A DNA stretch of 37,978 nucleotides from Acidobacteriota bacterium (GTDB taxonomy: Bacteria; Actinomycetota; Acidimicrobiia; Spongiisociales; UBA5794). Position numbers and translations under genes: made by a program. Shown in pieces: positions 6,099 through 20,742 of this stretch (positions within the stretch are counted from its first letter, which is position 1; every line of letters starts with the position of its first letter). Below the pieces are notes generated by a model. It did no database searches. It was not told where the DNA came from and worked only from the letters and a program-made list of their open reading frames with translations. The stretch lies in NCBI GenBank assembly GCA_022566415.1, contig JADFIY010000004.1, positions 1-37,978 of the forward strand, read 5' to 3'.

Positions 6099-6773
6099 GT
6101 GACCTCGCTGGCCCAACTCGGTACCGGAGACTGCGAGGCGATTCACCAGGAGTGGCTCAAGCAACCGGTGAACGCTTGGTCCAGTCTGGCGTTTGCCGTC
6201 GTCGGTCTCGCCGTCTTGGCGAGCGCCCGGTCGGCGAGCGGGGCCGATCGAACCAATCGTGTGGTGTTTGGCTTGCTGCTGAGCGCAACAGGGATCGGCA
6301 GCTTTCTGTTTCACGGGCCGCAGCCGGATACCGCTCATTTTCTCCACGACCTCACGCTCGTGGCCGCCCTCTGGTTCCTGGTGGTCGTCAATACGGCTGG
6401 GGCGTTTTCCGCTAACCGACAGACAGCGGCCGCGGTCTTCCTCGGAGGCGTTGCCGTCCTCGCTCTCGGCCTGCTCATCAGCCCAGGGATCAGCAATGCG
6501 CTTGTCGGCATCGTCATCATTCTGCTGATCGCTTCGAATGTCGTCACGTGGACGCATACCGGACCGATCCGCTTGTGGCATGCCATGGCCATTGGAGTGC
6601 TGATCGCCGCCGTCGCCCTCAACCTGGCCGGACGGACCGACTCTCCCTGGTGTGACCCGAGCACCCTGCTCCAGGCACATGCAGGGTGGCATGTGCTCGC
6701 CGCGGTCTTCCTCGGGCTCTATTTCATGGCAAGCGCTTCGACGAGGAGCGGGATCGGAGTGGGGATGTCGTGA
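6099..6773 (+). CDS. CREST-superfamily membrane hydrolase, alkaline-ceramidase-like
   Basis: The start is GTG at 6099; the ATG at 6091 closes after three codons. About seven membrane spans are seen in 224 residues. The conserved CREST/ceramidase residues are all present in order: Cys-Glu at 12-13 (GDCE), QPVNAWSSLAF (22-32), Ser68 and His72 in GSFLFHG, Asp84 in FLHD, Trp184-Cys185 in SPWCDP, and His194 and His198 in HAGWH. In this superfamily the three His and one Asp bind zinc and the Ser helps catalysis. The natural substrate in a bacterium without known sphingolipids is unclear. The 3' end overlaps the next gene by GTGA, so they are coupled. Confidence 0.75.
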   Translation: MTSLAQLGTGDCEAIHQEWLKQPVNAWSSLAFAVVGLAVLASARSASGADRTNRVVFGLLLSATGIGSFLFHGPQPDTAHFLHDLTLVAALWFLVVVNTAGAFSANRQTAAAVFLGGVAVLALGLLISPGISNALVGIVIILLIASNVVTWTHTGPIRLWHAMAIGVLIAAVALNLAGRTDSPWCDPSTLLQAHAGWHVLAAVFLGLYFMASASTRSGIGVGMS

Positions 6774-7714
6774 CCGGAGCCGTGACCATCAACGATGTGC
6801 GAGCCGCCGCCGACCGGATCCGCCCCCACATCCATCGCACCCCGATCGTGACCTCTTCGACGCTGGACGCTGCCGTCGGGGCCTCGGTATTTGCCAAAGC
6901 GGAGAATTTTCAGAAGGTCGGTGCCTTCAAAGCCCGTGGTGCCACCAATGCCGTGTTGCTGCTCGATGATGTCCCCGGCGTAGCCACCCACTCCAGCGGC
7001 AACCACGGCCAAGCGCTTGCCTACGCAGCAGGAATACGAGGCCTGCCTGCCTGGGTCGCTATGCCCAGAACCTCCAATCCACTAAAGATCGCAGCGGTCC
7101 GCGGTTACGGTGCCGAGGTCGTGCTCTGCGACCACGCCGAGCGTGAGGAGACCGCGTTGCGTCTGGTCGAAGAGAACGGGGCGGTGCTGGTACATCCATT
7201 CGATGATGCCAACGTGATCGCTGGTCAGGGAACCGCCGCCCTGGAACTCGTCGAGCAGGTCGACGATCTCGACATCATCATCGCCCCAATCGGCGGTGGA
7301 GGATTGTTGGCCGGCACTGCAATCGCTGCCATGCCAGCCCAATCCGCGATCACCGTTGTCGGTGCGGAGCCGTTCGCCGTCGATGACGCCTACCGGTCGT
7401 TGGCCTCCGGCGAACGTCAGCCGGGCGTCTCCAACCCGCAAACGGTTGCCGACGGGCTGCTGGTCGGGATGGGAGCCATGCCGTTCGACATTCTGTCCGG
7501 GCTCGGTGTGGAGATCCTGCGCGTCGAGGAGGCCGATATCCTCACCGCGGCGGCGTTCTTCCTCGAACGCATGAAGCTGGTCGTCGAGCCATCGGCCGCA
7601 ACCGCGTTGGCCGCCATCTTCACCCACCCCGATCGGTTTGCCGGGCGCAGGGTCGGTCTCATCGTGAGCGGAGGAAACACCGATCTCGCCTGGTATGAGC
7701 CATCAAGTTCGTAG
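6770..7714 (+). CDS. PLP-dependent threonine/serine ammonia-lyase or serine racemase family
   Basis: The chosen start is GTG at 6770 (GTGA overlap with the previous stop), which puts VTGAVTINDVRAAADRI at the N-terminus as in the family; the longer frame reads back through the upstream gene. The 314-residue fold-type-II enzyme carries the PLP lysine Lys54 in GAFKARGA, the substrate loop SSGNHGQALAYAA, the phosphate-binding GGGG loop in PIGGGGLLAG, and SGGN near the C-terminus. No ACT regulatory domain is present, so it resembles catabolic threonine dehydratase, serine racemase or hydroxyaspartate dehydratase more than biosynthetic IlvA. Substrate choice cannot be made from sequence alone. Confidence 0.85.
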   Translation: MTGAVTINDVRAAADRIRPHIHRTPIVTSSTLDAAVGASVFAKAENFQKVGAFKARGATNAVLLLDDVPGVATHSSGNHGQALAYAAGIRGLPAWVAMPRTSNPLKIAAVRGYGAEVVLCDHAEREETALRLVEENGAVLVHPFDDANVIAGQGTAALELVEQVDDLDIIIAPIGGGGLLAGTAIAAMPAQSAITVVGAEPFAVDDAYRSLASGERQPGVSNPQTVADGLLVGMGAMPFDILSGLGVEILRVEEADILTAAAFFLERMKLVVEPSAATALAAIFTHPDRFAGRRVGLIVSGGNTDLAWYEPSSS

Positions 7715-8847: not shown

Positions 8848-10014
8848 CTACAGAGCGCCTGGCATCCAGTCGCTGAGCTGGAAGGTCTTTCTGGTGGTCA
8901 CTGCGTGCTCCATCAGCTCGTCTGGGACCTCGGCAACCGATCTGGCAACGGACGCTTCGCCGGCGCCGGTGGCAACGGGCTGCCCCTCCGACAGATCGCA
9001 CACCTCCCTGGCCCGAGCCGAGATCTCAGCGGTTCCGATCGCCCTTGCCTGGGCGATGATGGCCTCTTTCGGCATCCCGAGGAGCGGCCTGAGCAGCGGT
9101 GTCGACGTCTGGTTGGACACCGCGACCAGGTGCGGCAGCGTCTGGCTGGAGACCTGTCCAAGGGCATCGCCGGTGACGAGCGCCTGAATGTCTCGCTCCT
9201 CGGCGATCGTCGACGCTGCCCGAGCCATGAGGACCTTCAGCGCAACCTGCCGCATTCGCGGCTTGACGTGGCCGATGAGGCCATCCTTCACCGGCTCGAA
9301 GTCGACGAGGTGCACGGCGGGGTCGGTGCCGTAGCCCCATCGCTCCCACATCAATCGAGCAACCGCCAGCGCGTGATCCGATTGGGCACAGTTCAGCGAG
9401 AAGTGGACATACTCGACCGGGCAGCCGCGAGACATCATCATCCATGCGGCGACGATCGAGTCGAATCCCCCGGAGACCAGGCTGAGCACCGGCCCCTGAC
9501 TGCCTATGGGTAGACCGCCGGCACCCTTGCGATGTTCGGCTATGAGAAATGCCCGGTCGTCGAGAACGGTGACGTTGACCCATTCGTCCGGGTCGTCCAG
9601 GTAGACCGTTCCGCCCGCCTCGACCAACAACGTCCCTGTGCGTGAGGCCAGGTCGTACGACCGCCATTCGTGCAAACCACGCCGCTTGACCCGCACCCCG
9701 AACGTCTTGCCTCGCACTCGGTCCGCCGACCGCGCCGCGATTGCCGCGGCCAGTGCGTCGAGGTCTTCAGCAGGCACCTCTTCGACGGTGTCGATCGACG
9801 CAGTCCCGAAGACCCTGGTGGCAGCGTCGACGACCGCATCGATGTTCCCATCGGGAAAGATAGCGAACCGATGCGAGCCGAGGCGCTCGACGGGCCCTTC
9901 ATACCCGACGCTGCCCAAGGCCTCGGTCAGGTTGGCGACGACGCGCTTGATCATCCGCGGCTGGGTGCGGCGGGATTTGAGAAATATGTCCCCGGACAGG
10001 GTGATATGGATCAT
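8848..10014 (-). CDS. thiI: ThiI, tRNA 4-thiouridine synthetase (short form)
   Basis: ThiI adenylates U8 of tRNA and transfers sulfur to it, and in some bacteria also supplies sulfur for the thiazole of thiamine. The 388-residue product has an N-terminal ferredoxin-like/THUMP region (about 1-165) and the PP-loop domain with SGGFDS at 181-186 and TGDALGQVSSQTL further on. It lacks the C-terminal rhodanese domain of E. coli ThiI, as in many Gram-positive forms. I prefer the ATG at 10014 because it aligns with the family N-terminus (MIHITLSGDIFLKS); an in-frame TTG at 10035 would add seven residues. Neither has a clear ribosome site. It follows the Rieske-ThDP gene by 89 bases. Confidence 0.9.
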   Translation of the reverse strand: MIHITLSGDIFLKSRRTQPRMIKRVVANLTEALGSVGYEGPVERLGSHRFAIFPDGNIDAVVDAATRVFGTASIDTVEEVPAEDLDALAAAIAARSADRVRGKTFGVRVKRRGLHEWRSYDLASRTGTLLVEAGGTVYLDDPDEWVNVTVLDDRAFLIAEHRKGAGGLPIGSQGPVLSLVSGGFDSIVAAWMMMSRGCPVEYVHFSLNCAQSDHALAVARLMWERWGYGTDPAVHLVDFEPVKDGLIGHVKPRMRQVALKVLMARAASTIAEERDIQALVTGDALGQVSSQTLPHLVAVSNQTSTPLLRPLLGMPKEAIIAQARAIGTAEISARAREVCDLSEGQPVATGAGEASVARSVAEVPDELMEHAVTTRKTFQLSDWMPGAL

Positions 10015-10103
10015 GGGATCGTTCGTGGAGGCCAAGGCGCGGCCAGTTTACGCCGAGACGGTGGGTGTTGGGGGTTGTCCCTTGACCCGCTCGATCAATC
10101 CGC

Positions 10104-12050
10104 TCACATCCATCGTGGCGATGTGGTCACCTCGACGAGCGCAGGGCCACCCGTCACCGCCAACGCCTCGCTCAGCACCGATTCCAGATCGTCTGGATCG
10201 TCGACCCTGAAACCTCGCCCTCCGCACAGCTCGGCGTAGGCGGCGAAATCCGGATTCACCAGATCGGTCTGCCAGACCGGACGCAGCGCCGAAACCTGTT
10301 CCCTGCTGATCTTCGCCAACTCGTCGTTGTTGAGCACGATGTGGGTGATCGGCATCTCGTACTTGACGGCGGTGGTGAACTCGGCCATATATTGACCGAG
10401 GCCACCGTCTCCCGAGATCGAGATCACCTTTCTGTGGTCCCCTACGGCGGCCCAGGCACCCAGCGCCGCGGGCAGGGCGAAGCCGATCGATCCCAGGTAC
10501 CCGGACATCAACACGTCCTGTTCACCGCGCGACTCGAAGTAGTGCCCGAAGGCGTAGGTGTTGTTTCCGACATCGACGGCGAGCACCGCATCGTTGGGGA
10601 CCAGGCCGTCGAGGACACCGAAGAGCCGGGCGGGATGCATCCGACCCTTGGCATCGAAGAGTTCGGCTCGTCGCTCCTTCTCCCTACGCCACAGCTCCCA
10701 GCGGTGGGCCAGCGTTGCTCGCATTTCGGGGCGGTCGGTTGCGGGGAGGGCGTCGCGCAGCGCGGCGACCGTGCTCCGGATATCTCCCCACACGGCGACG
10801 TCGACCGGGTGAAACTTGCCGAGCGCCGCACGGTCGAAGTCGACCTGGATCGTTCGCTTCTTCTCCGAGATCCCGGTGTGGACGGCGAACGAAGCTCCCA
10901 GGACCAGCAGCGTGTCTGATCGACCCATGGCGGCTGCGGCGACTCTGGTTCCTGACCGCCCCAGGGTCCCGGTGGCGAGCGGATGGTCATCGCCGACCAG
11001 GCCCTTTGCCTTGAACGTGGTGATGAGCGGGGCGTCGAGATGCTCGGCCAGCGCGATGACATCAGTTCGATACTGCCGTGCGCCGTTCCCTGCGATGATG
11101 ACGGGCCGCTCGGCACCGGCGAGCAGGTCGACGGCCCGTGCCACCTCGTCCCGGGGTGGTTCGATGGTCGGGTTGGCGACTCTTCCCGCCATGGGTCGAG
11201 GCGGTGGTTCCGCCAATCCCTCCAGTTCCTGGACCTCATCAGGGAAGATCAGATGAGCGACGGACCGGTCGACGATGGTGTGTTTGATCGCCAGCGCCAT
11301 CAGCTCGGTTGCGTTCGTTGGCGTCAGCACCGTCTGGCTCCAGCCGGCTACCGCGGCAAAGGCTTCGGAGAGAGGGATCTCCTGGAAGGCACCGGGGCCC
11401 AGCACCTGCGTGTTGACCTGCCCGGTGAGGGCAAGGGTTGGGGAACGGTCGACCTTGGCATCCCACAGGCCGGTCAACAGGTTGGTCGCTCCCGGCCCGG
11501 CGATCGAGAAGCAGGCCGCCGGTCGGCCGGTCAGCTTGCCGTATGCGGAGGCGGCAAACGCCGCCGCCCCCTCATGGCGGATGCCAAAGTAGCGGAGACG
11601 CCCATCGACCTCGGCCTTGCGGAACGCCTCGGCGAGGCCGAGGTTGGAGTGCCCCACCATCCCGAACACGGTGTCGACGCCCCAGTCGGTCATGACGTCG
11701 ACCATCTGATCCATGAGCGAGGGCTGCTCGACTATCGTGGGAAGCTCGACAAAGACGCCACCGTCGCGCTCTTCGACCGCGTACGGTGTTGCCGCATCGT
11801 CGTATCCCTCGTCTGGCGGATCACCGGTGATCGGGTCGTACTCGTAGCCGTGCCAGGGACAGATCAGCCACCCGTCCTCGATCGTCCCCTCCCCCAGCGG
11901 ACCCCCCTGGTGCGGGCAGCGGTTGTCGAGTGCGCCGATCCCCCGCTCGGTGCGAACCAGGCACACGGCGCGGCCGCCGACGACGAGTGCGGTGACCTCA
12001 TCGACGGCTAGATCTGCGACGTCGACCTCGTACCAGACCGTATCGCTCAC
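10104..12050 (-). CDS. Rieske [2Fe-2S] domain fused to a ThDP-dependent enzyme
   Basis: The start is GTG at 12050, overlapping the cupin stop (GTGA). Residues 1-105 are a Rieske ferredoxin domain with both cluster motifs, CPHQGG (45-50) and CPWHGYE (64-70). From about 110 a complete three-domain ThDP enzyme of the acetolactate synthase/pyruvate oxidase class follows. It has the cofactor-activating Glu160 in GIRHEGAAAF, a central domain (about 300-440) and the ThDP/Mg motif GDGG (547-550) to NND (574-576). The product is 648 residues against about 550 for the class. The domains join without a long linker. Electron transfer between ThDP intermediate and Rieske cluster is plausible but inferred. 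The substrate is unknown. Confidence 0.88.
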   Translation of the reverse strand: MSDTVWYEVDVADLAVDEVTALVVGGRAVCLVRTERGIGALDNRCPHQGGPLGEGTIEDGWLICPWHGYEYDPITGDPPDEGYDDAATPYAVEERDGGVFVELPTIVEQPSLMDQMVDVMTDWGVDTVFGMVGHSNLGLAEAFRKAEVDGRLRYFGIRHEGAAAFAASAYGKLTGRPAACFSIAGPGATNLLTGLWDAKVDRSPTLALTGQVNTQVLGPGAFQEIPLSEAFAAVAGWSQTVLTPTNATELMALAIKHTIVDRSVAHLIFPDEVQELEGLAEPPPRPMAGRVANPTIEPPRDEVARAVDLLAGAERPVIIAGNGARQYRTDVIALAEHLDAPLITTFKAKGLVGDDHPLATGTLGRSGTRVAAAAMGRSDTLLVLGASFAVHTGISEKKRTIQVDFDRAALGKFHPVDVAVWGDIRSTVAALRDALPATDRPEMRATLAHRWELWRREKERRAELFDAKGRMHPARLFGVLDGLVPNDAVLAVDVGNNTYAFGHYFESRGEQDVLMSGYLGSIGFALPAALGAWAAVGDHRKVISISGDGGLGQYMAEFTTAVKYEMPITHIVLNNDELAKISREQVSALRPVWQTDLVNPDFAAYAELCGGRGFRVDDPDDLESVLSEALAVTGGPALVEVTTSPRWM

Positions 12051-12439
12051 GCGCCGCGGTATTCGTCGTCGGTGACTTGGCGGTCCGTCCATTCGGTCGG
12101 GTCACCCACGGTGATCGACAGGTGAGTCATCGGCGCATCGAATGCCGCCCCGTGCCAATGCAGCTCACCGGGAGGGATCTGCACGGTGTCGCCCGCTGTC
12201 ATCGCGGTGCGCTCGCCTCCATCGTTGGCCACAAGTCCGTAGCCAGATACGCAGTACAGGACCTGCCCCCCGGGATGCGAATGCCAGTTCGTCCTTGCGT
12301 TCGGTTCGAAAACTACCCCGAGCACCACCGCCTCTGACGAGTCGTCGGGCTCGGCCATGGGCCCAAACCAGGCACGGCCGGTGAACTGCGCCTCAGGTGC
12401 CGGTGCCCACTTGATCAGGTCGGTTGATGTGAAGTGCAT
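12047..12439 (-). CDS. Single-domain cupin protein
   Basis: The 130-residue product is a small cupin barrel. Motif 1 is NWHSHPGGQVLYCVSGYG with metal ligands His53, His55 and Gln59; motif 2 is PPGELHWHGA with His94 and His96. Such proteins bind Fe or Mn and act as dioxygenases, isomerases or sensors. Similar cupins often have carboxymuconolactone-decarboxylase-like or quercetinase-like roles, but nothing here decides between them. It overlaps the Rieske-ThDP gene by GTGA, so the two are translationally coupled. No clear ribosome site precedes the ATG at 12439. Confidence 0.85.
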   Translation of the reverse strand: MHFTSTDLIKWAPAPEAQFTGRAWFGPMAEPDDSSEAVVLGVVFEPNARTNWHSHPGGQVLYCVSGYGLVANDGGERTAMTAGDTVQIPPGELHWHGAAFDAPMTHLSITVGDPTEWTDRQVTDDEYRGA

Positions 12440-12582: not shown

Positions 12583-13863
12583 ATGGGACAGCCGATCTTG
12601 GTTCAACGCCGTGTCCAGGGCGACATCGCCATGTTCAGTGGCGATCGGTCGCTCACCGGACAAGATGGCGCCAGGTACTTCGCGGCAGACGGGGTGCCAG
12701 ACAACGGGAAGCTGTCGGCCGCCGTCGCCAAGGAGTTCTTCGACCTCGACCCCGAAATCGACTATGTCTATGTGGCCTACAACCACGTCATGGCGAGACG
12801 GGCCGGCGGGTGGGATGAAGACTTGCTTGAGGCTGCCGACGAAGCCCTCAACAGGTTTTTTGTGTTTTACGATGGAGAGATCGACGTACCGATCGGTGGC
12901 GCCGGATCCGGGGTAGCGCTGGCACCACCCGGGGCGGTAACGGGCCTGTCCGACGAGACCATGGAGGCGCTGCGGACCGAGCACTACAACGCCACCATCA
13001 GCTACCTGGACGAGGTTCACGAGGACCTGTGGATATTTCGCGTCCGACCGGACGACGGGCCGCTCGCCTACCAGGCGGGGCAGTACACCACACTCGCCCT
13101 GGGGTTTTGGGAGCCGCGCATCGACGAGCTCACCGAGGACCTCGACGATGCACAACGCCGGAAGCTGGCCAGAAGATCGTATTCGGTGAGCAGCTCGATG
13201 CTGGCAGAGAACGGCTCCTTGCTCGACCCAGCGGAGGAGGCCGCAGCCGAGTTTTATGTCGTGTTAGTGAGGAGCGACTCGCAGGGAACCCCAGCGGTGC
13301 TCACCCCTCGCCTGTTTCTCAAGGGTGAGGGTGACCGGCTGTTCATCGGCCGCAAGGCGGCCGGGCGATACCGCCTCGACAGGTTCGACGATCCGACGGC
13401 CGACGTCGTCTTCCTATCGACCGGAACCGGCGAGGCACCCAACAACAGGATGACGCTCGACCTGCTGCGACGGGGCCACCAGGGTCGGATTGTGGGGGTA
13501 TGCACCACTCGCTACTTGCGGGACCTGGCCTACTTGGAGACCCACGGCCGTCTGGCGGAACGATACGACAACTACGAATACATCCCGTTGACGACACGTG
13601 AGCCGGAGAACGAGGGCAACAAGATCTACATTCAAGACCTCATCGAGTCGGCGAAGCTGGAGGAGATGGGATTCGCCCTCGACCCCGAGCGAACCCATGT
13701 CTACCTGTGCGGCAACCCTCTCATGATCGGCCTTCCCGAGTGGGATGGCGACACCCCGACCTATCCCGAGACGCGTGGAGTCGTCGAGATCCTGACCGAA
13801 CGCGGCTTCACCCTGGACCACGGCCGCACCATCGGCAACATCCATATCGAGGAGTATTGGTAA
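12583..13863 (+). CDS. FNR-type flavin/NADP oxidoreductase with N-terminal Nfu_N-like extension
   Basis: The 426-residue product is much longer than ordinary ferredoxin-NADP reductases (about 260). Its last 280 residues are the FNR module, with FAD motif RRSYSVSS (197-204), NADP-binding GTGEAP (281-286), YLCGNP (375-379) and a terminal aromatic residue as in bacterial Fpr. Residues about 10-100 form a separate alpha/beta domain. The order (RSLTG near 22, a helix ending in FFDLDPEIDYVYVAYN, then GGWDEDLLEAADEALNRFF) resembles the N-terminal domain of Nfu/NifU iron-sulfur scaffolds; that assignment is tentative. GAAGGG precedes the ATG. It is divergent from the cupin/Rieske-ThDP pair, so it may supply or take up electrons for that enzyme. 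Confidence 0.85.
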   Translation: MGQPILVQRRVQGDIAMFSGDRSLTGQDGARYFAADGVPDNGKLSAAVAKEFFDLDPEIDYVYVAYNHVMARRAGGWDEDLLEAADEALNRFFVFYDGEIDVPIGGAGSGVALAPPGAVTGLSDETMEALRTEHYNATISYLDEVHEDLWIFRVRPDDGPLAYQAGQYTTLALGFWEPRIDELTEDLDDAQRRKLARRSYSVSSSMLAENGSLLDPAEEAAAEFYVVLVRSDSQGTPAVLTPRLFLKGEGDRLFIGRKAAGRYRLDRFDDPTADVVFLSTGTGEAPNNRMTLDLLRRGHQGRIVGVCTTRYLRDLAYLETHGRLAERYDNYEYIPLTTREPENEGNKIYIQDLIESAKLEEMGFALDPERTHVYLCGNPLMIGLPEWDGDTPTYPETRGVVEILTERGFTLDHGRTIGNIHIEEYW

Positions 13864-14184: not shown

Positions 14185-14213
14185 GTCCTGTGCGGCCAAC
14201 GGCCGCTCAGGAC
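14185..14213 (-). terminator. Hairpin at the end of the peptide-transporter operon
   Basis: GTCCTG-x-GCGGCC and GGCCGC-x-CAGGAC form a 12-bp stem with one mismatch and a three-base loop; the stop codon of the last ATPase gene (14207-14209) lies inside the stem. There is no clear T-run, so the terminator call is moderate. Confidence 0.5.
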
Positions 14214-15286
14214 CTCAGGTCCAACACGGCGCGCTCGCTACCCGTCCAGGTTCCGTCTGGCGCTACCAGATGGCAGGCTACGAAATGCTCATCCCCGCGG
14301 TCGTCGAGCGGTGGATGGTCTCGGTCCCGACACACGTCGGTAGCGAACGGGCAACGTTCGATGAACCGGCACACCGCCTCGGGGTTGATCGCCTTGCTGA
14401 CGCCGCCGAGGATCTCGACGGGAGGTCGGTGGTAGGAGGGGTCCGGCACCGGTACCGCAGATAGCAGCGCCCGCGTATACGGGTGCATCGGGTTCTTCAG
14501 TAACTCCTCGGTCGTCGCCAACTCGACAATCTTTCCCAGGTACATCACCGCAATCCGGTCGCACATGTAACGGGCGACGGCGAGATCGTGGGTGATGTAC
14601 AGGTAGGTGACGCCGAGCTCTTCCGCGAGCTCGGTCATCAGCCGCATGATCGAGATCCTGATGCTTACGTCGAGCATCGACGTCGGCTCGTCGGCGACCA
14701 CGAACGAAGGGTTAATCACCAACGCCCGTGCGATCGCGACGCGCTGTCGCTGACCCCCGGAGAGCTCGTGCGGGTACCGGAACAGAAAGGACTCAGCGGG
14801 GGTGAGCCCGACAAGAGTCAGCAGCTCGATCACCCGCTTCTCTCTGTCTTGCGACGTACCGATCTTTTGCACGACGAGCGGCTCCGCCACCGCGTCGAAC
14901 ACCGTCCGCCTCGGGTTCATCGATTCGTATGGATCCTGGAAGATCATCTGGACGTTCTTCCGGAAGTCCTTGCGGTCGGATTTGCTCGTGATCTCGGTGA
15001 CCTCGACCATCTCACCGGCGGTCTGGTCTCTGATCAGGACGGAACCTTCGGTCGCCTCGTCGAGTTTGACCAAGATGCGCCCGGTCGTCGTCTTCCCACA
15101 GCCCGACTCGCCGACGAGACCGAGGCTGTGGCCGGCTTTGATCTCGAAGCTGATGCCGTCGATGGCGTGGACGAAATCCTTGGCCTTGCGGAACATGCCC
15201 TTGGACACGGGAAACACCTTGCGCAGCCCCACGACCTTGACCCGGACGTCGGGCGACGTCTCTCCCCGGTTCATCGTGTCGGTCAT
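14207..15286 (-). CDS. Peptide ABC importer ATPase (OppF/DppF type)
   Basis: The start is the ATG at 15286, overlapping the stop of the previous ATPase (ATGA); the longer frame reads through that gene. The 359 residues contain Walker [10 protein letters not shown] (59-67), the signature LSGGQRQR, Walker B FVVADEPTS, the H-loop ITHD, and the C-terminal oligopeptide/dipeptide extension with cysteines CRFIERCPFATDVC that in this subfamily holds an iron-sulfur site. It is the second of two ATPases that power one importer. It is the last gene of the operon. Confidence 0.92.
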   Translation of the reverse strand: MTDTMNRGETSPDVRVKVVGLRKVFPVSKGMFRKAKDFVHAIDGISFEIKAGHSLGLVGESGCGKTTTGRILVKLDEATEGSVLIRDQTAGEMVEVTEITSKSDRKDFRKNVQMIFQDPYESMNPRRTVFDAVAEPLVVQKIGTSQDREKRVIELLTLVGLTPAESFLFRYPHELSGGQRQRVAIARALVINPSFVVADEPTSMLDVSIRISIMRLMTELAEELGVTYLYITHDLAVARYMCDRIAVMYLGKIVELATTEELLKNPMHPYTRALLSAVPVPDPSYHRPPVEILGGVSKAINPEAVCRFIERCPFATDVCRDRDHPPLDDRGDEHFVACHLVAPDGTWTGSERAVLDLRS

Positions 15287-16335
15287 GCCGATTCCGCCTT
15301 CATCTCCGGTACCTGCTCGTAGTTCCAGCACGCCACCAGGTGGCCGGGCTCGATCTCTTCCATCGGAGGCTCCTCGGCTGCACATTGGTCGGTGGCGAAC
15401 GGGCAACGGGGATGGAAACGGCACCCGGTGGGCGGGTGCAACAGGTCCGGTGGCTCACCCTCCAGCGGGTTGAGGTTCAACCGCGGTCCGGTAACCGACG
15501 GCGTCGAGGAAAGCAGCAACCACGCATACGGGTGGCGGGGTCGGGCAAAGACATCTTCGGTCAGACCGTGCTCGACGAGCTTCCCCGCGTACATCACGCC
15601 GAGGTGGTCGGTGATCTCCGCGATCACCGCGATATCGTGCGAGATGTAGATGATGCTCATCCCGAACTCATGCTGGATGCTGCGTAGCTCTTCGAGCACC
15701 TGCTCCTGCACGATCACATCCAACGCGGTGGTCGGCTCGTCGGCGATGATGATCTTGGGATCGCAAGACAACGCCATGGCGATGACCGCCCGCTGCTTCA
15801 TCCCTCCGGAGAACTCATGGGGGTACCGATCCATCATCGCCGGGTCGAGGCCCACCAGCTCGAAGAGCTCAGCGATTCGGGCGTTTGCCACCGCCACAGT
15901 CGGTTTCTCCTCCCAGTGCAGATCGATGGCTTCGCGGATCTGATCGCCGACCCGATACACCGGATTCCATGAGTTCATCGCCCCCTGGAAGATCATGGCG
16001 ATGTCGTTCCAGCGCCGCCGCCGCATCTCCTCGTCGGAGAGCTCGAGCAGGTTGTCCCCGTCAAGGACGATCTTCCCGGCCTGGATCTCTGCGTTGTCGG
16101 GGAGCAACCGCATCAGCGACATCGCGATCGAGGTCTTCCCACAACCAGACTCGCCGACCAACCCCAGTGACTCACCGCGGCCAATGGTGAAACTGACGTC
16201 CTGGACGGCCGAGACGTAGCCATCCTTGGTCCGGTAGTTCATGATGAGATGGTCGACTTCGAGGATCGGACCGGGGTCCAACTCTGGCTTCTCGCCTTCT
16301 TGTTTGCCGGCGACCATCGACCGATCGGCTGTCAT
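15283..16335 (-). CDS. Peptide ABC importer ATPase (OppD/DppD type)
   Basis: The start is the ATG at 16335 with an ATGA overlap to the permease gene; the extra upstream residues in the long frame are a shadow. The 350-residue product has Walker A GESGCGKT (61-68), the D-type signature FSGGMKQRA, Walker [13 protein letters not shown], the H-loop ISHD, and the C-terminal [14 protein letters not shown] cluster motif of oligopeptide-type ATPases. It pairs with the downstream OppF-type subunit. Confidence 0.92.
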
Positions 16336-17432
16336 CGGGCGCGGAGTCTCGGGTTGACGACCTCGTCCATCGCCCGGCCGATCAGGAAGAACCCGGCTCC
16401 GAACAACGTCACGGAAAGGCCGGCAGGGAACAGCAACCACCAGGCGGCGAGCCCGAACAGTGTGTAGCCCTGGGTGTGTGCGGTATTGATCATGATTCCC
16501 CAGCTCATCGGGATGCTGAGCAACCCGAAGAACGACAGCGTGGCCTCGAGGAAGATCGCGCCGACGACCTCAAACATCATGTACAGGAAGCTGAGCGGGA
16601 GCACGTTGGGCATGATGTGGCGGGTGATGATGTGCCAGTTGGATCCCCCGGCAACCCTGGCCGCATCGTTGAACGGCTTCACCTTGACCGACAGGGCCTG
16701 GGACTTGAGGATGATCGCGGTCGCGCCCAAGCCCGACAGGATTCCGATCAGCAGGCCAAGCTGCCACAGGCCCACCTCATACAACGAGCCGATCACGATC
16801 AGCAATGGGAGCAGCGGGAGCAGCAAAATGAGATCGGCCTGCCGCATCAGCCAGCTGTCGACCCAGCCTCCGTAGAAGGCGGCCACCGACCCGATGGTGG
16901 TAGCGATGGTCACCGCGCTGACCGCGGCGATCACCCCGAGGGTGAACGCCGCCTGCGAGCTCTTCATCAACTGGGACAGGATGTCGCGACCAAACGGGTC
17001 GGTGCCGAGCAGGTGGGCGGAGTTGGGTGGTGCCGGCGCCTGCCCAACCAGGACCACATCCCCTTCTTCAGGGAAGAAGTTGCCGAAGATCATCGCCTCG
17101 GTGAACGAGATCTCGGTGATCGGGTCGGTGACTTCACCGTCGGGTACCACGGTCTTCTCCAGAATCACCGTGTCGTTCCCCCGAACGGGATCGTAAATCT
17201 CTTCCGGCCAGACCGTGGCCATCAGGATCGGGTGCAGGATGGCCAGGAAGCCAAAGAAGGCGACAAACACGACACCGGCCACCCCGAGCCTGTTGCGGGA
17301 GAAGATCTCCCAGTTCTTGGTGAAAGAGCGGTTCCACAGGCGGATGCGGGTGCGCCACAGCCCCTCCTTTGCCACGGGAACATCGGGTTCGAGCACCGGA
17401 TCGACAGGGGGAATCTCGGTCACGTCTGTCAC
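16332..17432 (-). CDS. Peptide ABC importer permease (OppC/DppC type)
   Basis: The 366-residue product has a cytoplasmic N-terminus with RNRLGVAGVVFVAFFGFLA as first span, then the usual GTDPFGRDILSQ entry to the transport domain, four or five further spans, and the EAA motif DAARVAGGSNWHIITRHIMPN. It is longer than usual (about 300) because about 75 polar residues lie between the first span and GTDPFGRD, an extracytoplasmic insertion. An 11-base gap separates it from the other permease gene. Confidence 0.92.
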   Translation of the reverse strand: MTDVTEIPPVDPVLEPDVPVAKEGLWRTRIRLWNRSFTKNWEIFSRNRLGVAGVVFVAFFGFLAILHPILMATVWPEEIYDPVRGNDTVILEKTVVPDGEVTDPITEISFTEAMIFGNFFPEEGDVVLVGQAPAPPNSAHLLGTDPFGRDILSQLMKSSQAAFTLGVIAAVSAVTIATTIGSVAAFYGGWVDSWLMRQADLILLLPLLPLLIVIGSLYEVGLWQLGLLIGILSGLGATAIILKSQALSVKVKPFNDAARVAGGSNWHIITRHIMPNVLPLSFLYMMFEVVGAIFLEATLSFFGLLSIPMSWGIMINTAHTQGYTLFGLAAWWLLFPAGLSVTLFGAGFFLIGRAMDEVVNPRLRAR

Positions 17433-17443
17433 CGAACCACCGC

Positions 17444-18604
17444 CTATCCCTGCACCCTGATCCGTGGATCAAGGAAGGCGTAGAGGACGTCGGCGACGAG
17501 GTGAGCGAACAAGGCGAGCAGGCCGATGAAGGCGAGCGCACCCATCGCCACCGGGAGATCCTCGACGTTGACCGCGTTGAGCAGGGTCAGCCCGAGCCCC
17601 GGCCAGGAGAATATGGACTCGGTGACGATGCCGCCCCCGATGATAAAGGCGATGGCAAGCACGAACGACGTGGTGACAGGGAGCATGGCGTTCCGAGCGG
17701 CGTGCCGGTCGCGGATCACCTTCTCCGGCACCCCCTTGGCTCGGGCGGTGAAGATGTAATCCTCGCGCAGCGTCTCCAACATCGAGCTTCTGGTGAGCAG
17801 GGTGATGGCGGCGTAGAACACCAGGGTCAGCGTCGTCACCGGGAGCACGGTGTGGTAGGCGATATCGGCGGCGTACCGCGACATCGGTGAGATCAACCAG
17901 AAGGCGAGCATCGAGATGGCAATGAGGGCAAAAAGGATGCGCCGAGCCCTGGTCCGCGGTACCGGCTCGGCGACGAACTTGCCCGTTCCCCAGACAACAA
18001 GAGCGACGCCGGCTCCGGCGAGGAACATGCTGAGCAGCATGGTGTTGAACACCTGGTTTGCGGTATACGGCGCGTCGAACCACTGGGCGGGGGTGAGGAA
18101 CTTCCCAAGCGGGAACCAGTTGAGCTGAGATCCGAAGAACCACAGCATGAGGATGGCGAACCATGGGTAGAACACCGTGTACAGGATGATGCTGGTGACC
18201 ATCGTCCCCGTCTCGGCGGCGCTGCCACGCCTCCAGGCCACCATCTTGCCGGTCTGGAATCCGACGATATAGGAGAGGAGGGTGGCGATGCCGAACAGAT
18301 AGAGGGTGCGGGGAAGGGCCGTCAGCAGGATATCGGCCACCGTCCGCGGGTAATGATCAAAGCTCACCCCGAGGTTGAGGGTGAGCACGTTCCTGATGTA
18401 GAAGAGGTACTGCGCAAACAGCGGCTGATCGAGGCCAAGCCGCTCGCGAAGAATCTGCTTGGCCTCCGGAGGGATGTCCGGGTTGCCGACGAACTGGGCA
18501 GAGATGTCGCCAGGCTGAGCGTTGATCAAGAAGAAGAGAATGGTCAGAAAGACGAGGAACAGCACGAACATCTGCAGGAGCCTGATGGTCAGGTAGCGCA
18601 CCAC
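17444..18604 (-). CDS. Peptide ABC importer permease (OppB/DppB type)
   Basis: The typical start MVRYLTIRLLQMFVLFLVF gives the first span, followed by the extracytoplasmic region with RERLGLDQPLFAQYLFYIRN and LNLGVSF, then the transport domain with EAA motif TARAKGVPEKVIRDRHAARN and the terminal LDPRIRVQG. At 386 residues it is longer than usual because of an extra hydrophobic pair between about 180 and 250. It is the first gene after the terminator that follows the binding-protein gene. Confidence 0.92.
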   Translation of the reverse strand: MVRYLTIRLLQMFVLFLVFLTILFFLINAQPGDISAQFVGNPDIPPEAKQILRERLGLDQPLFAQYLFYIRNVLTLNLGVSFDHYPRTVADILLTALPRTLYLFGIATLLSYIVGFQTGKMVAWRRGSAAETGTMVTSIILYTVFYPWFAILMLWFFGSQLNWFPLGKFLTPAQWFDAPYTANQVFNTMLLSMFLAGAGVALVVWGTGKFVAEPVPRTRARRILFALIAISMLAFWLISPMSRYAADIAYHTVLPVTTLTLVFYAAITLLTRSSMLETLREDYIFTARAKGVPEKVIRDRHAARNAMLPVTTSFVLAIAFIIGGGIVTESIFSWPGLGLTLLNAVNVEDLPVAMGALAFIGLLALFAHLVADVLYAFLDPRIRVQG

Positions 18605-18700
18605 CTCAACAGCTCCTCTGTCCTGTGGTGGCCCGCAACCACCTGCCTCTCAGCGGTGCCGCGAGCATAGTCTGGCCTGCCAGGCACCGCATTGGTACGC

Positions 18701-18742
18701 AAAAGAGGAAAGAGGGGAGGGTGCCGAAGCACCCTCCCCTCT
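18701..18742 (-). terminator. Strong Rho-independent terminator after the binding-protein gene
   Basis: A perfect 14-bp stem (AGAGGGGAGGGTGC with its complement, 18711-18742) with a four-base loop is followed on the minus strand by TTTCCTCTTTTG. It lies 18 bases after the stop of the substrate-binding protein and before the permease genes, as expected when the binding protein must be made in excess and read-through supplies the rest. Confidence 0.85.
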
Positions 18743-18759
18743 GTTCAACGATCGTTGAG

Positions 18760-20742
18760 CTACTTGGCAACCGCGTTCTGCATTCCATCCTGGAACTGAA
18801 TCCCGGAGAGGGACCCAGTGAAGGGGAATTGCAGCGAGTTGTTGTAGAACTCGGTGATCGGCGTGTCGAACAGCACGACATAGGGCAGATCTGTAGCGAG
18901 CTTGCGCTCCATCTCCCAGATCTGATCGAACGCGACCGCCTTATCGGTCTCGGCGAACATGGCATCGGCAAGCGCGTCGAATTCAGCGTCGCTGTATCCG
19001 GTGGCATTGCCGCCATCGTTCGTCTCTGCGAAGTTCCTCGAGTGGAAGAACCCCTCATGGAACGTCGGCCATGCCGGGTTCCCAAGGCTCCAACCGAGGA
19101 TGTACATGTCGAAGGTGGGCTCGGTGCCAACACCGGGCCACACCTGGGCGACAATGGTGTTGAAGTCCGTCGGGTTCGCCCTGGCGTTCACGCCAAGGTT
19201 CTCCGCCCAGTCCTCCAACCACAGCGACGCCGTATGGCGCAGCGGGTCGTAGGTAGCCGAGGGAGCCATGATCTCCACCTCGGGCACGAGATTGCCCTCT
19301 GGATCGATCAATCCCGAACCGACCTCCTCTTCGAGGATGTTGCCATCTTCGTCGCGCACCGCCTCAACCGTCCAGGTGAACCCGTCGGCCTCGAGCGCTG
19401 CGTACGCCGCATTGAGGCGCTCCGTCGTGCTCAGACCAACGTACTGGCTGGCGATCTCATCGGCTACCTCTTCGTTGTACCACGCCTGGTTGCCCTCGGG
19501 CACCAGCACGTACAACGGGAAGGCCACACCCTGAAGGACGTTCTGCGTCAGGTTTTCCTTGTCGAAATACGCCATCGCCTGCCGGAACCCCAGGAACTTG
19601 CCTGGGCTCTTGCGCAGGTTGAAGGCCAGATACCGGAAGCCGTTGGTCGGGTTGACCGTGACGCTCAAGTTATCGGCCTCGAGACCCTGCTGGCGCAGAC
19701 CCGGCGACACGCCGAGCGGGTTGATCCAATAATCGATCTCACCATCGGCGAGGGCAAGCATGGCCGCTGCCTGATCGCCATAGATCGAGAACGAAGTGCG
19801 ATCGAGGAACGGACCCTCGGTGTACTCGACGGCGATGTCGCCACCACCTTCTCCGTACAACAGCTCATCGTTCACCGCATACGAACCGTCCTGCCAGAAC
19901 GTGTGCGTCGAACCGGCGTTCGCATAGTTCTCGTTCTTGATGTTCTCGACGAACGCACCCTCTTCACGCCCGTTGTAGCTCACCGGGCCGCCGGAGAGAT
20001 CCCCGACCTCGAGCGAGCTGGCGCCGTATACGATCGCAGCAGGGTCCTCGCTGGCGAGAGCCTCTGCAAGCACAGGCTCCCAAGGAGCCGCCGGCATGAT
20101 CGAAGCAACCCCGACGTTGTGCGGCCACACCGCGGCGCCGGGCTTCGAGTCGAACGTGAACTTCACCGTGAATTCGTCAACCGCCTCGACGTTTGTCAGA
20201 CGGGGCGACGATGCCTCGGTATACGGATAGGCGCTGATCCAGTCACCGCCGAGCTCCGCATCGCGGACCGCCTCGTAGGTGAACACCACGTCGGCGGCCG
20301 TCAGGATGCTGCCGTCCGACCACGTGTAGTCGTCACGCATCGGCTGGGTGACCGTCCAGATATCTCCCTCCTGGACCGCTTCGACGGGCAAGCCCAACGC
20401 AGCGTCCGGAGCTATGACGAGTCCTGGAAAGGCGATACTGAACAGTGAGGGTTTCGTGGGGCCGTGCACATAGGACATATACACCGTGCCGTCGGGCCCA
20501 ATGAACGCCCAGAAGTTGTCGTTGACGATGTCCGAAGTCATCCCAACGGTATAGGTAAAGCCGGCCGGCGTTGGTGCGGTGGTCGCTTGTGTGCCCCCTG
20601 GTGCCGCAGTGGTCCCTGGCGCCGCGGTAGTGGCGACGGTGGTGTCAGCACCATCGTCACTCGTGCACGCTCCCGCAATGAGAGCAAAGGCGACCAAAAG
20701 GACCACAACAGCGACCGGGCGGCTACGCCATAATCGTGTCAA
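18760..20742 (-). CDS. Peptide/solute-binding lipoprotein (SBP family 5)
   Basis: The start is TTG at 20742, decided by a perfect AAGGAGG at 20749-20755, six bases upstream. The 660-residue product has a signal peptide ending IAGAC (Cys26), a Thr/Ala/Pro-rich linker (about 30-60) and a large family-5 binding fold with signatures such as DDYTWSDGSILTAADVVFTY, YWINPLGVSPG, and SYRYLAFNLRK-like text at FRYLAFNLRKSPG. It would bind peptides or similar solutes outside the membrane and deliver them to the permeases encoded next. At 660 residues it is longer than the usual 530-560. Confidence 0.92.
   Translation of the reverse strand: MTRLWRSRPVAVVVLLVAFALIAGACTSDDGADTTVATTAAPGTTAAPGGTQATTAPTPAGFTYTVGMTSDIVNDNFWAFIGPDGTVYMSYVHGPTKPSLFSIAFPGLVIAPDAALGLPVEAVQEGDIWTVTQPMRDDYTWSDGSILTAADVVFTYEAVRDAELGGDWISAYPYTEASSPRLTNVEAVDEFTVKFTFDSKPGAAVWPHNVGVASIMPAAPWEPVLAEALASEDPAAIVYGASSLEVGDLSGGPVSYNGREEGAFVENIKNENYANAGSTHTFWQDGSYAVNDELLYGEGGGDIAVEYTEGPFLDRTSFSIYGDQAAAMLALADGEIDYWINPLGVSPGLRQQGLEADNLSVTVNPTNGFRYLAFNLRKSPGKFLGFRQAMAYFDKENLTQNVLQGVAFPLYVLVPEGNQAWYNEEVADEIASQYVGLSTTERLNAAYAALEADGFTWTVEAVRDEDGNILEEEVGSGLIDPEGNLVPEVEIMAPSATYDPLRHTASLWLEDWAENLGVNARANPTDFNTIVAQVWPGVGTEPTFDMYILGWSLGNPAWPTFHEGFFHSRNFAETNDGGNATGYSDAEFDALADAMFAETDKAVAFDQIWEMERKLATDLPYVVLFDTPITEFYNNSLQFPFTGSLSGIQFQDGMQNAVAK

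Follow-up and report, generated by a model that had tools for sequence, protein, structure and literature searches.

A Rieske ferredoxin domain joined to a pyruvate oxidase-type ThDP enzyme: conservation, predicted function and genomic pairing with a second Rieske fusion

What would an enzyme of the pyruvate oxidase type do with an iron-sulfur electron carrier of its own? The question is raised by a gene in the window, that is, the whole 37,978-nucleotide stretch of DNA that was analyzed, which encodes a Rieske [2Fe-2S] domain and a ThDP enzyme in one chain. The known ThDP oxidases of the pyruvate oxidase (POX) type pass their electrons to O2 or to quinone, and the ferredoxin-linked 2-oxo-acid oxidoreductases have a different architecture. 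If true, a POX-type enzyme that carries a Rieske ferredoxin of its own and is paired with a second Rieske-bearing flavoenzyme would be another solution for 2-oxo-acid oxidation, present in several bacterial phyla and in haloarchaea.

The fusion gene, its conservation and its distribution

The Rieske-ThDP fusion gene was a single intact open reading frame (ORF) for 648 amino acids on the minus strand (positions 10104-12050), as supported by the ORF itself, Pfam, alignment and homologues. It runs from a GTG start codon (12050-12048) to the stop codon (10106-10104), and the coordinates given in an earlier note on this DNA proved right when the ORF was checked. The upstream neighbour is a cupin gene (12047-12439, minus strand), whose stop codon shares bases with the GTG as GTGA (GCGTGAGC), so that the two genes are likely to be translationally coupled. 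The mechanical ORF extends to an ATG at 12092, which lies within the cupin gene.

The Pfam search placed the Rieske domain (PF00355) at residues 10-77 (11820-12023, minus strand), with the ligands C45, H47, C64 and H67 in the motifs C45-P-H47-QGGPLGEG and C64-P-W-H67-GYEY. On the same strand, it is followed by TPP_enzyme_N, the Pyr domain (PF02776; residues 112-225; 11376-11717), with the activating Glu E160 and an invariant H134; by TPP_enzyme_M, the central Rossmann-like domain (PF00205; residues 303-431; 10758-11144), in which G361, G364, G367 and D404 of the FAD/ADP site are kept; and by TPP_enzyme_C, the PP domain (PF02775; residues 493-641; 10128-10574), with the GDGG...NN motif. The Rieske domain scored 51.6 bits against a cut-off of 20.3, and the three ThDP domains all scored far over their cut-offs. 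The ThDP set consists of E160 and of G547-D548-G549 and N575 for the metal and diphosphate. The claim of the earlier note that a Rieske domain and a ThDP enzyme form one 648-residue chain, each with a complete motif set, was thus borne out by the domain search and by the presence of all ligands and catalytic residues. The AlphaFold2 model of the fusion had a mean pLDDT of 91.5 and a pTM of 0.91.

Conservation of the Rieske ligands in homologues had been set beforehand as a point on which the idea could fail. In the 64 aligned full-length sequences, which are 46-75% identical to the window protein, all four Cys and His ligands (C45, H47, C64 and H67) were invariant, as were E160, D548 and N575. 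The fusion is a conserved protein and not a chance read-through. A GTDB contig scan yielded 46 full-length fusions (53-75% identity) from Acidimicrobiia, Thermoleophilia, Chloroflexota, Ignavibacteria/Melioribacteraceae, Planctomycetota and Maricaulis. In the class-level search, a fusion match was found in 53 of 296 genomes, and in the Anaerolineae in 4 of 150. The gene also occurs on plasmids, in four haloarchaea and in Mycobacteroides abscessus, where the annotation reads merely "thiamine pyrophosphate-binding protein", and the Rieske ligands are kept in all five of these homologues. The haloarchaeal fusions have Asp at the N575 position and Ser at the G547 position, which by sequence is a conservative change at the putative metal site.

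In a tree of the ThDP parts, the fusions formed a single clade with a support of 100/100 against POX, PoxB, AHAS and Gcl when the very long rows were left out, and the tree with those rows was less clear. An Anaerolineae homologue with 57% identity (L133, 6911-8533, minus strand) lacks the Rieske domain and is nested within the fusion clade; therefore, the domain was lost there, and neither the fold nor every role of the protein requires it. A separate Rieske gene was looked for in the L133 neighbourhood and was not found. Three sequences with 46-48% identity (L105, L106 and L107) make up a divergent sub-branch of the fusions with conserved neighbours of its own, namely a gene for about 1130 amino acids downstream and an ORF of about 290-450 amino acids without Pfam match upstream.

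The catalytic part and the Rieske domain compared with known proteins

By sequence and by fold, the closest solved relatives of the fusion were E. coli PoxB, L. plantarum POX (LpPOX) and C. glutamicum PQO, with the acetolactate synthases behind them. The best sequence model was that of pyruvate oxidase PRK08611, which was matched with 410 bits, short of its curated cut-off of 742. Since the match falls below this cut-off and the active site differs, the fusion is, as judged from its sequence, POX-type and is not called a pyruvate oxidase. It has the ThDP fold and the three-domain order TPP_enzyme_N/M/C of POX, PoxB and PQO (3EY9, 1POX/4FEE, 9EV3), and it shares with LpPOX the activating Glu E59, the F121, Q122, I480 and E483 positions, the GDG...N motif and the FAD-domain glycines. 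It differs from these enzymes in its N-terminal Rieske domain, and the identity is only about 26-28%. Moreover, the fusion stops about 5 residues past the aligned core, whereas PoxB (572 amino acids) continues for about 45 further residues; the PoxB-type C-terminal tail, which binds lipid and quinone, is thus absent.

Two positions set the active site apart. F479 of LpPOX is replaced by an invariant Lys (K580) and G35 by the invariant His (H134). The F479 position is occupied by F in LpPOX and PoxB, and by M or Q in the other POX-like proteins compared. Because of the invariant Lys, neither the electron path of POX nor its pyruvate specificity can simply be transferred to the fusion. The Lys580/His134 pair points to an additional anionic or polar group on the substrate or product. 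In the alignment with LpPOX, the fusion retains the glycines of the FAD domain and the Asp on the adenosine side; since the fold is also that of the FAD-dependent pyruvate oxidases, an FAD probably lies between the ThDP and the Rieske cluster.

The fusion would resemble PFOR and the other 2-oxo-acid:ferredoxin oxidoreductases in principle, in that a ThDP intermediate would be oxidized through an iron-sulfur center by single electrons. Unlike PFOR, it has a ThDP fold of the POX type and one Rieske cluster, and the Pfam search found no 4Fe-4S or PFOR-type domains in it. It is unlikely to be the sole pyruvate-oxidizing enzyme of the cell, as the genome has three E1_dh genes.

The earlier note had taken the cluster to be of high potential, and this claim was not supported. 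Compared with bc1-type Rieske proteins, the fusion lacks the extra disulfide cysteine pair and the Ser, in place of which G50, W66 and Y69 stand, so that a high-potential Rieske of the bc1 type was rejected on the basis of the motif. The bc1-type Rieske protein of the same genome (L007) reads CVHLGC...CPCHGS, and the fusion reads CPHQGG...CPWHGY. The PDB matches of the fusion domain were mostly dioxygenase-type ferredoxins and Rieske domains of oxygenases. Like the NDO ferredoxin (2QPZ), CarAc (1VCK) and T4moC (1VM9), it has the CXH...CX2H pattern without bc1-type disulfide cysteines and is of similar size. Given the ferredoxin-type motif, these PDB matches and general knowledge of the family, a low-to-middle potential is expected. 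Unlike the Rieske ferredoxins of oxygenase systems, the carrier is covalently joined to a ThDP enzyme, and no oxygenase was recognised in the fusion neighbourhoods examined.

A second Rieske fusion as genomic partner

The fusion gene is usually accompanied by a second Rieske fusion, which stands beside it in Ignavibacteria, Planctomycetota, Chloroflexota, Thermoleophilia and several actinobacterial families. In this second protein, here termed Rieske-GltS, a Rieske domain precedes a Glu_synthase domain (FMN/3Fe-4S). The two genes were adjacent on the same strand in 16 loci, mostly in the order GltS to ThDP and mostly with gaps of 5-160 bp. On haloarchaeal plasmids, they are one to three annotated genes apart in L131 and L129, and in Halorubrum both genes are carried by one plasmid. 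In the genome of the window, Rieske-GltS (539 amino acids; L006/L085, P0002) is unlinked and lies on another contig, outside the window. The paired Rieske-GltS gene is the most informative feature of this analysis, and it is invisible from the window alone.

In statistics that account for relatedness up to the genus level only, Rieske-GltS was present in 32 of the 53 genomes with a fusion and in 12 of the 243 others (odds about 30, p=3e-19), and the co-occurrence by genus had p=2.5e-12. Within the Anaerolineae, all four fusion genomes had it, against 4 of 146 others (p=3.5e-6). When only genomes with at least 90% completeness were counted, the figures were 27/39 and 9/170. The remaining 12 of these 39 fusion genomes were without Rieske-GltS; therefore, it is no obligatory acceptor. 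Of the 47 fusion genomes reached via the loci, a partner with a match that covers the Rieske part was present in 33. The genome with the Rieske-less L133 retains a divergent Rieske-GltS (L134).

In 24 sequences of Rieske-GltS, the Rieske ligands and the 3Fe-4S cysteines (CX5CX4C) were invariant. The protein resembles glutamate synthase in its FMN barrel and its 3Fe-4S motif, and glutamate synthase was its best fold match, followed by glycolate and lactate oxidases; a Pfam match to FMN_dh was also obtained. The domain search found neither an amidotransferase (GATase) domain nor an NAD(P)H/FAD domain in it. Furthermore, its loop reads AKTGTGGHLPG, in contrast to AKPGEGGQLPG in E. coli GltB. With no amidotransferase and an altered loop, glutamate synthesis by Rieske-GltS is not assured.

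Relatives of this partner carry other iron proteins in place of the Rieske domain. Two CDGSH [2Fe-2S] domains were found in a Vibrio plasmid (L148, 7695-9245) and in two actinobacterial genomes (L153, 3668-5275; L154, 3956-5569), and a rubredoxin-like domain was found in a Monoglobus plasmid (L151, 5785-7212). Fusions of CDGSH and glutamate synthase are known as "type 5 CISD" (PMC3174974). Rieske-GltS is like these in its small N-terminal [2Fe-2S] module and in its GltS FMN core, which is about 61% identical to theirs; it has a Rieske domain in place of CDGSH, and no ThDP enzyme has been described alongside CDGSH-GltS. The common denominator of the Rieske, CDGSH and rubredoxin-like modules is one-electron chemistry, and the swap among three unrelated small iron proteins speaks for an exchangeable one-electron carrier at the N-terminus of the partner. 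The Rieske domain of the ThDP enzyme is, by analogy, probably a carrier as well. The suggestion of the earlier note that the cluster serves as a built-in one-electron partner is thus supported.

Predicted electron route, alternatives and neighbouring genes

We propose, with a probability of roughly 0.6, that the fusion is a POX-type, ThDP- and probably FAD-dependent 2-oxo-acid oxidoreductase from which electrons exit via the attached Rieske ferredoxin. The oxidative scheme is favoured because of the invariant ligands, the POX fold, the kept FAD positions, the single clade of the fusions and the partner with a swappable carrier. In this scheme, ThDP would add to the 2-oxo acid and CO2 would then be released, the resulting carbanion/enamine would be oxidized, probably via FAD, and a separate protein would take up the electrons one by one by way of the N-terminal [2Fe-2S] cluster. 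A Rieske-type ferredoxin, permanently attached, would thus stand in for the usual external acceptor, either O2 or a membrane quinone reached via a C-terminal amphipathic tail. The candidate acceptors or exchange partners are Rieske-GltS, adjacent or elsewhere in the genome, and, in Planctomycetota and Maricaulis, a ferric-reductase-like protein of the membrane that bears a Rieske domain at its C-terminus and whose gene lies near the fusion in L041, L042, L044 and L051. The binding of the cluster and of FAD, the direction in which the electrons flow, the class of substrate and the acceptor are each predicted here.

Where the electrons go can be read in different ways. The two proteins may form a couple in which Rieske-ThDP oxidizes a 2-oxo acid and the electrons pass from Rieske to Rieske into a reductive step of Rieske-GltS, perhaps a glutamate-synthase-like amination; the reduction would then be driven by the decarboxylation and need neither NAD(P)H nor free ferredoxin. 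The adjacent same-strand pairs in 16 loci of several phyla, the pairs on haloarchaeal plasmids and the strong co-occurrence speak for such a couple, as do the small iron-sulfur carrier fused to each protein and a partner devoid of amidotransferase and NAD(P)H/FAD domains. However, the partner is absent from the 12 good fusion genomes mentioned above and from both Maricaulis genomes, its altered loop means that the reaction may differ from glutamate synthesis, and CDGSH-GltS exists without an adjoining fusion (L153). We hold this couple to be a tentative idea and, on balance, rather unlikely. It is unlikely, too, that both enzymes are oxidative, with Rieske-GltS making the 2-oxo acid, Rieske-ThDP decarboxylating it and both handing their electrons to the same acceptor, for instance the Rieske-ferric-reductase in the membrane. 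The FMN_dh and glycolate/lactate oxidase matches of Rieske-GltS, the fold of which is related to the FMN-dependent 2-hydroxy-acid oxidases, would agree with this, and so would the membrane protein in the four loci. The same holds for a gene row of malate synthase, isocitrate lyase, the fusion and a GAPDH-II-like dehydrogenase (L109, L110 and L137; partial in L140; also L138 and L139), which fits a context in which a 2-oxo acid is converted to acetate or glyoxylate. Nevertheless, the best matches of Rieske-GltS are still glutamate synthases and not hydroxy-acid oxidases, the membrane protein occurs in few lineages, and the gene row is found in one actinobacterial family only.

A different reading dispenses with oxidation altogether. 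The ThDP part could be a non-oxidative carboligase or decarboxylase like AHAS or Gcl, with the Rieske domain as a structural element or as a redox sensor that gates the activity. AHAS and Gcl have a similar FAD site and use their FAD in a non-redox role; in AHAS, it is not consumed in the net reaction. The FAD of AHAS, an enzyme of the same fold, is indispensable (PMC5298238). The change of F479 to Lys and the Rieske-less L133, which keeps the catalytic set, could also be accommodated. In sequence and fold matches, however, the oxidases outrank AHAS; moreover, the replacement of the partner's carrier by other electron carriers points to electron transfer, and the ligands in the fusion are strictly conserved. 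This non-oxidative role therefore seems improbable to us, and the oxidative scheme with exit through the Rieske ferredoxin is preferred.

The earlier note had also considered that the fusion might already be a well-characterised family. In the literature searched, which covered few subscription papers, neither the Rieske-ThDP fusion nor its pairing with Rieske-GltS was found to be described; an account may exist elsewhere, and domain-architecture databases may list the fusion. What is new is the combination of domains and the pairing, as every single domain was already known. The conserved pairing of two Rieske-bearing enzymes suggests an undescribed route for electrons out of, or between, both. 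The pair is a testable unit: both proteins are apparently soluble, few redox cofactors are predicted, and the two genes are strongly linked across genomes.

The neighbours in the window were also considered as clues. A divergent ferredoxin-NADP reductase-like gene (12583-13863, plus strand), found by the domain search, is a possible electron partner, but it adjoins no other fusion and was rejected as a dedicated reductase. The cupin gene adjoins the fusion in six other loci, and a ThiI-like gene downstream (8848-10035, minus strand) also adjoins it in L008, L009, L029 and L035; both were assigned from Pfam and the loci. In the same four loci, an oligopeptide-type ABC transporter stands upstream of the fusion, as it does in the window (14207-20742, minus strand; two ATPases, permeases and SBP_bac_5). 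These three were set aside as pathway clues because they are conserved among near relatives only. The DivIVA, OmpA, proteasome ATPase and Sir2 neighbours represent lineage context with no plausible link.

Several further observations were made around the fusion genes. The Rieske-ferric-reductase belongs to a membrane module (L042, 7937-10474; L051, 8324-10860; L041, 3566-5866; L044) together with a small transmembrane protein and an anchored protein of about 255 amino acids, which has no Pfam match and carries the conserved motif DSKCW/Y-x-G-x-M-K/R-P...H-K/R-ACA. On the haloarchaeal plasmids, the surroundings of the fusion and of Rieske-GltS (L128, L129, L130, L131 and L150) contain many sulfur-handling genes (TusA, DsrE, rhodanese, YeeE/YedE and TauE/SafE), and a triple-rhodanese gene lies near the fusion in the Ignavibacteria locus L056. 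In the window, positions 6686-7714 (plus strand) encode a PLP-dependent dehydratase that is close to the models of BhcB and threo-3-hydroxyaspartate ammonia-lyase, under their cut-offs, and that is found near the fusion in several relatives too.
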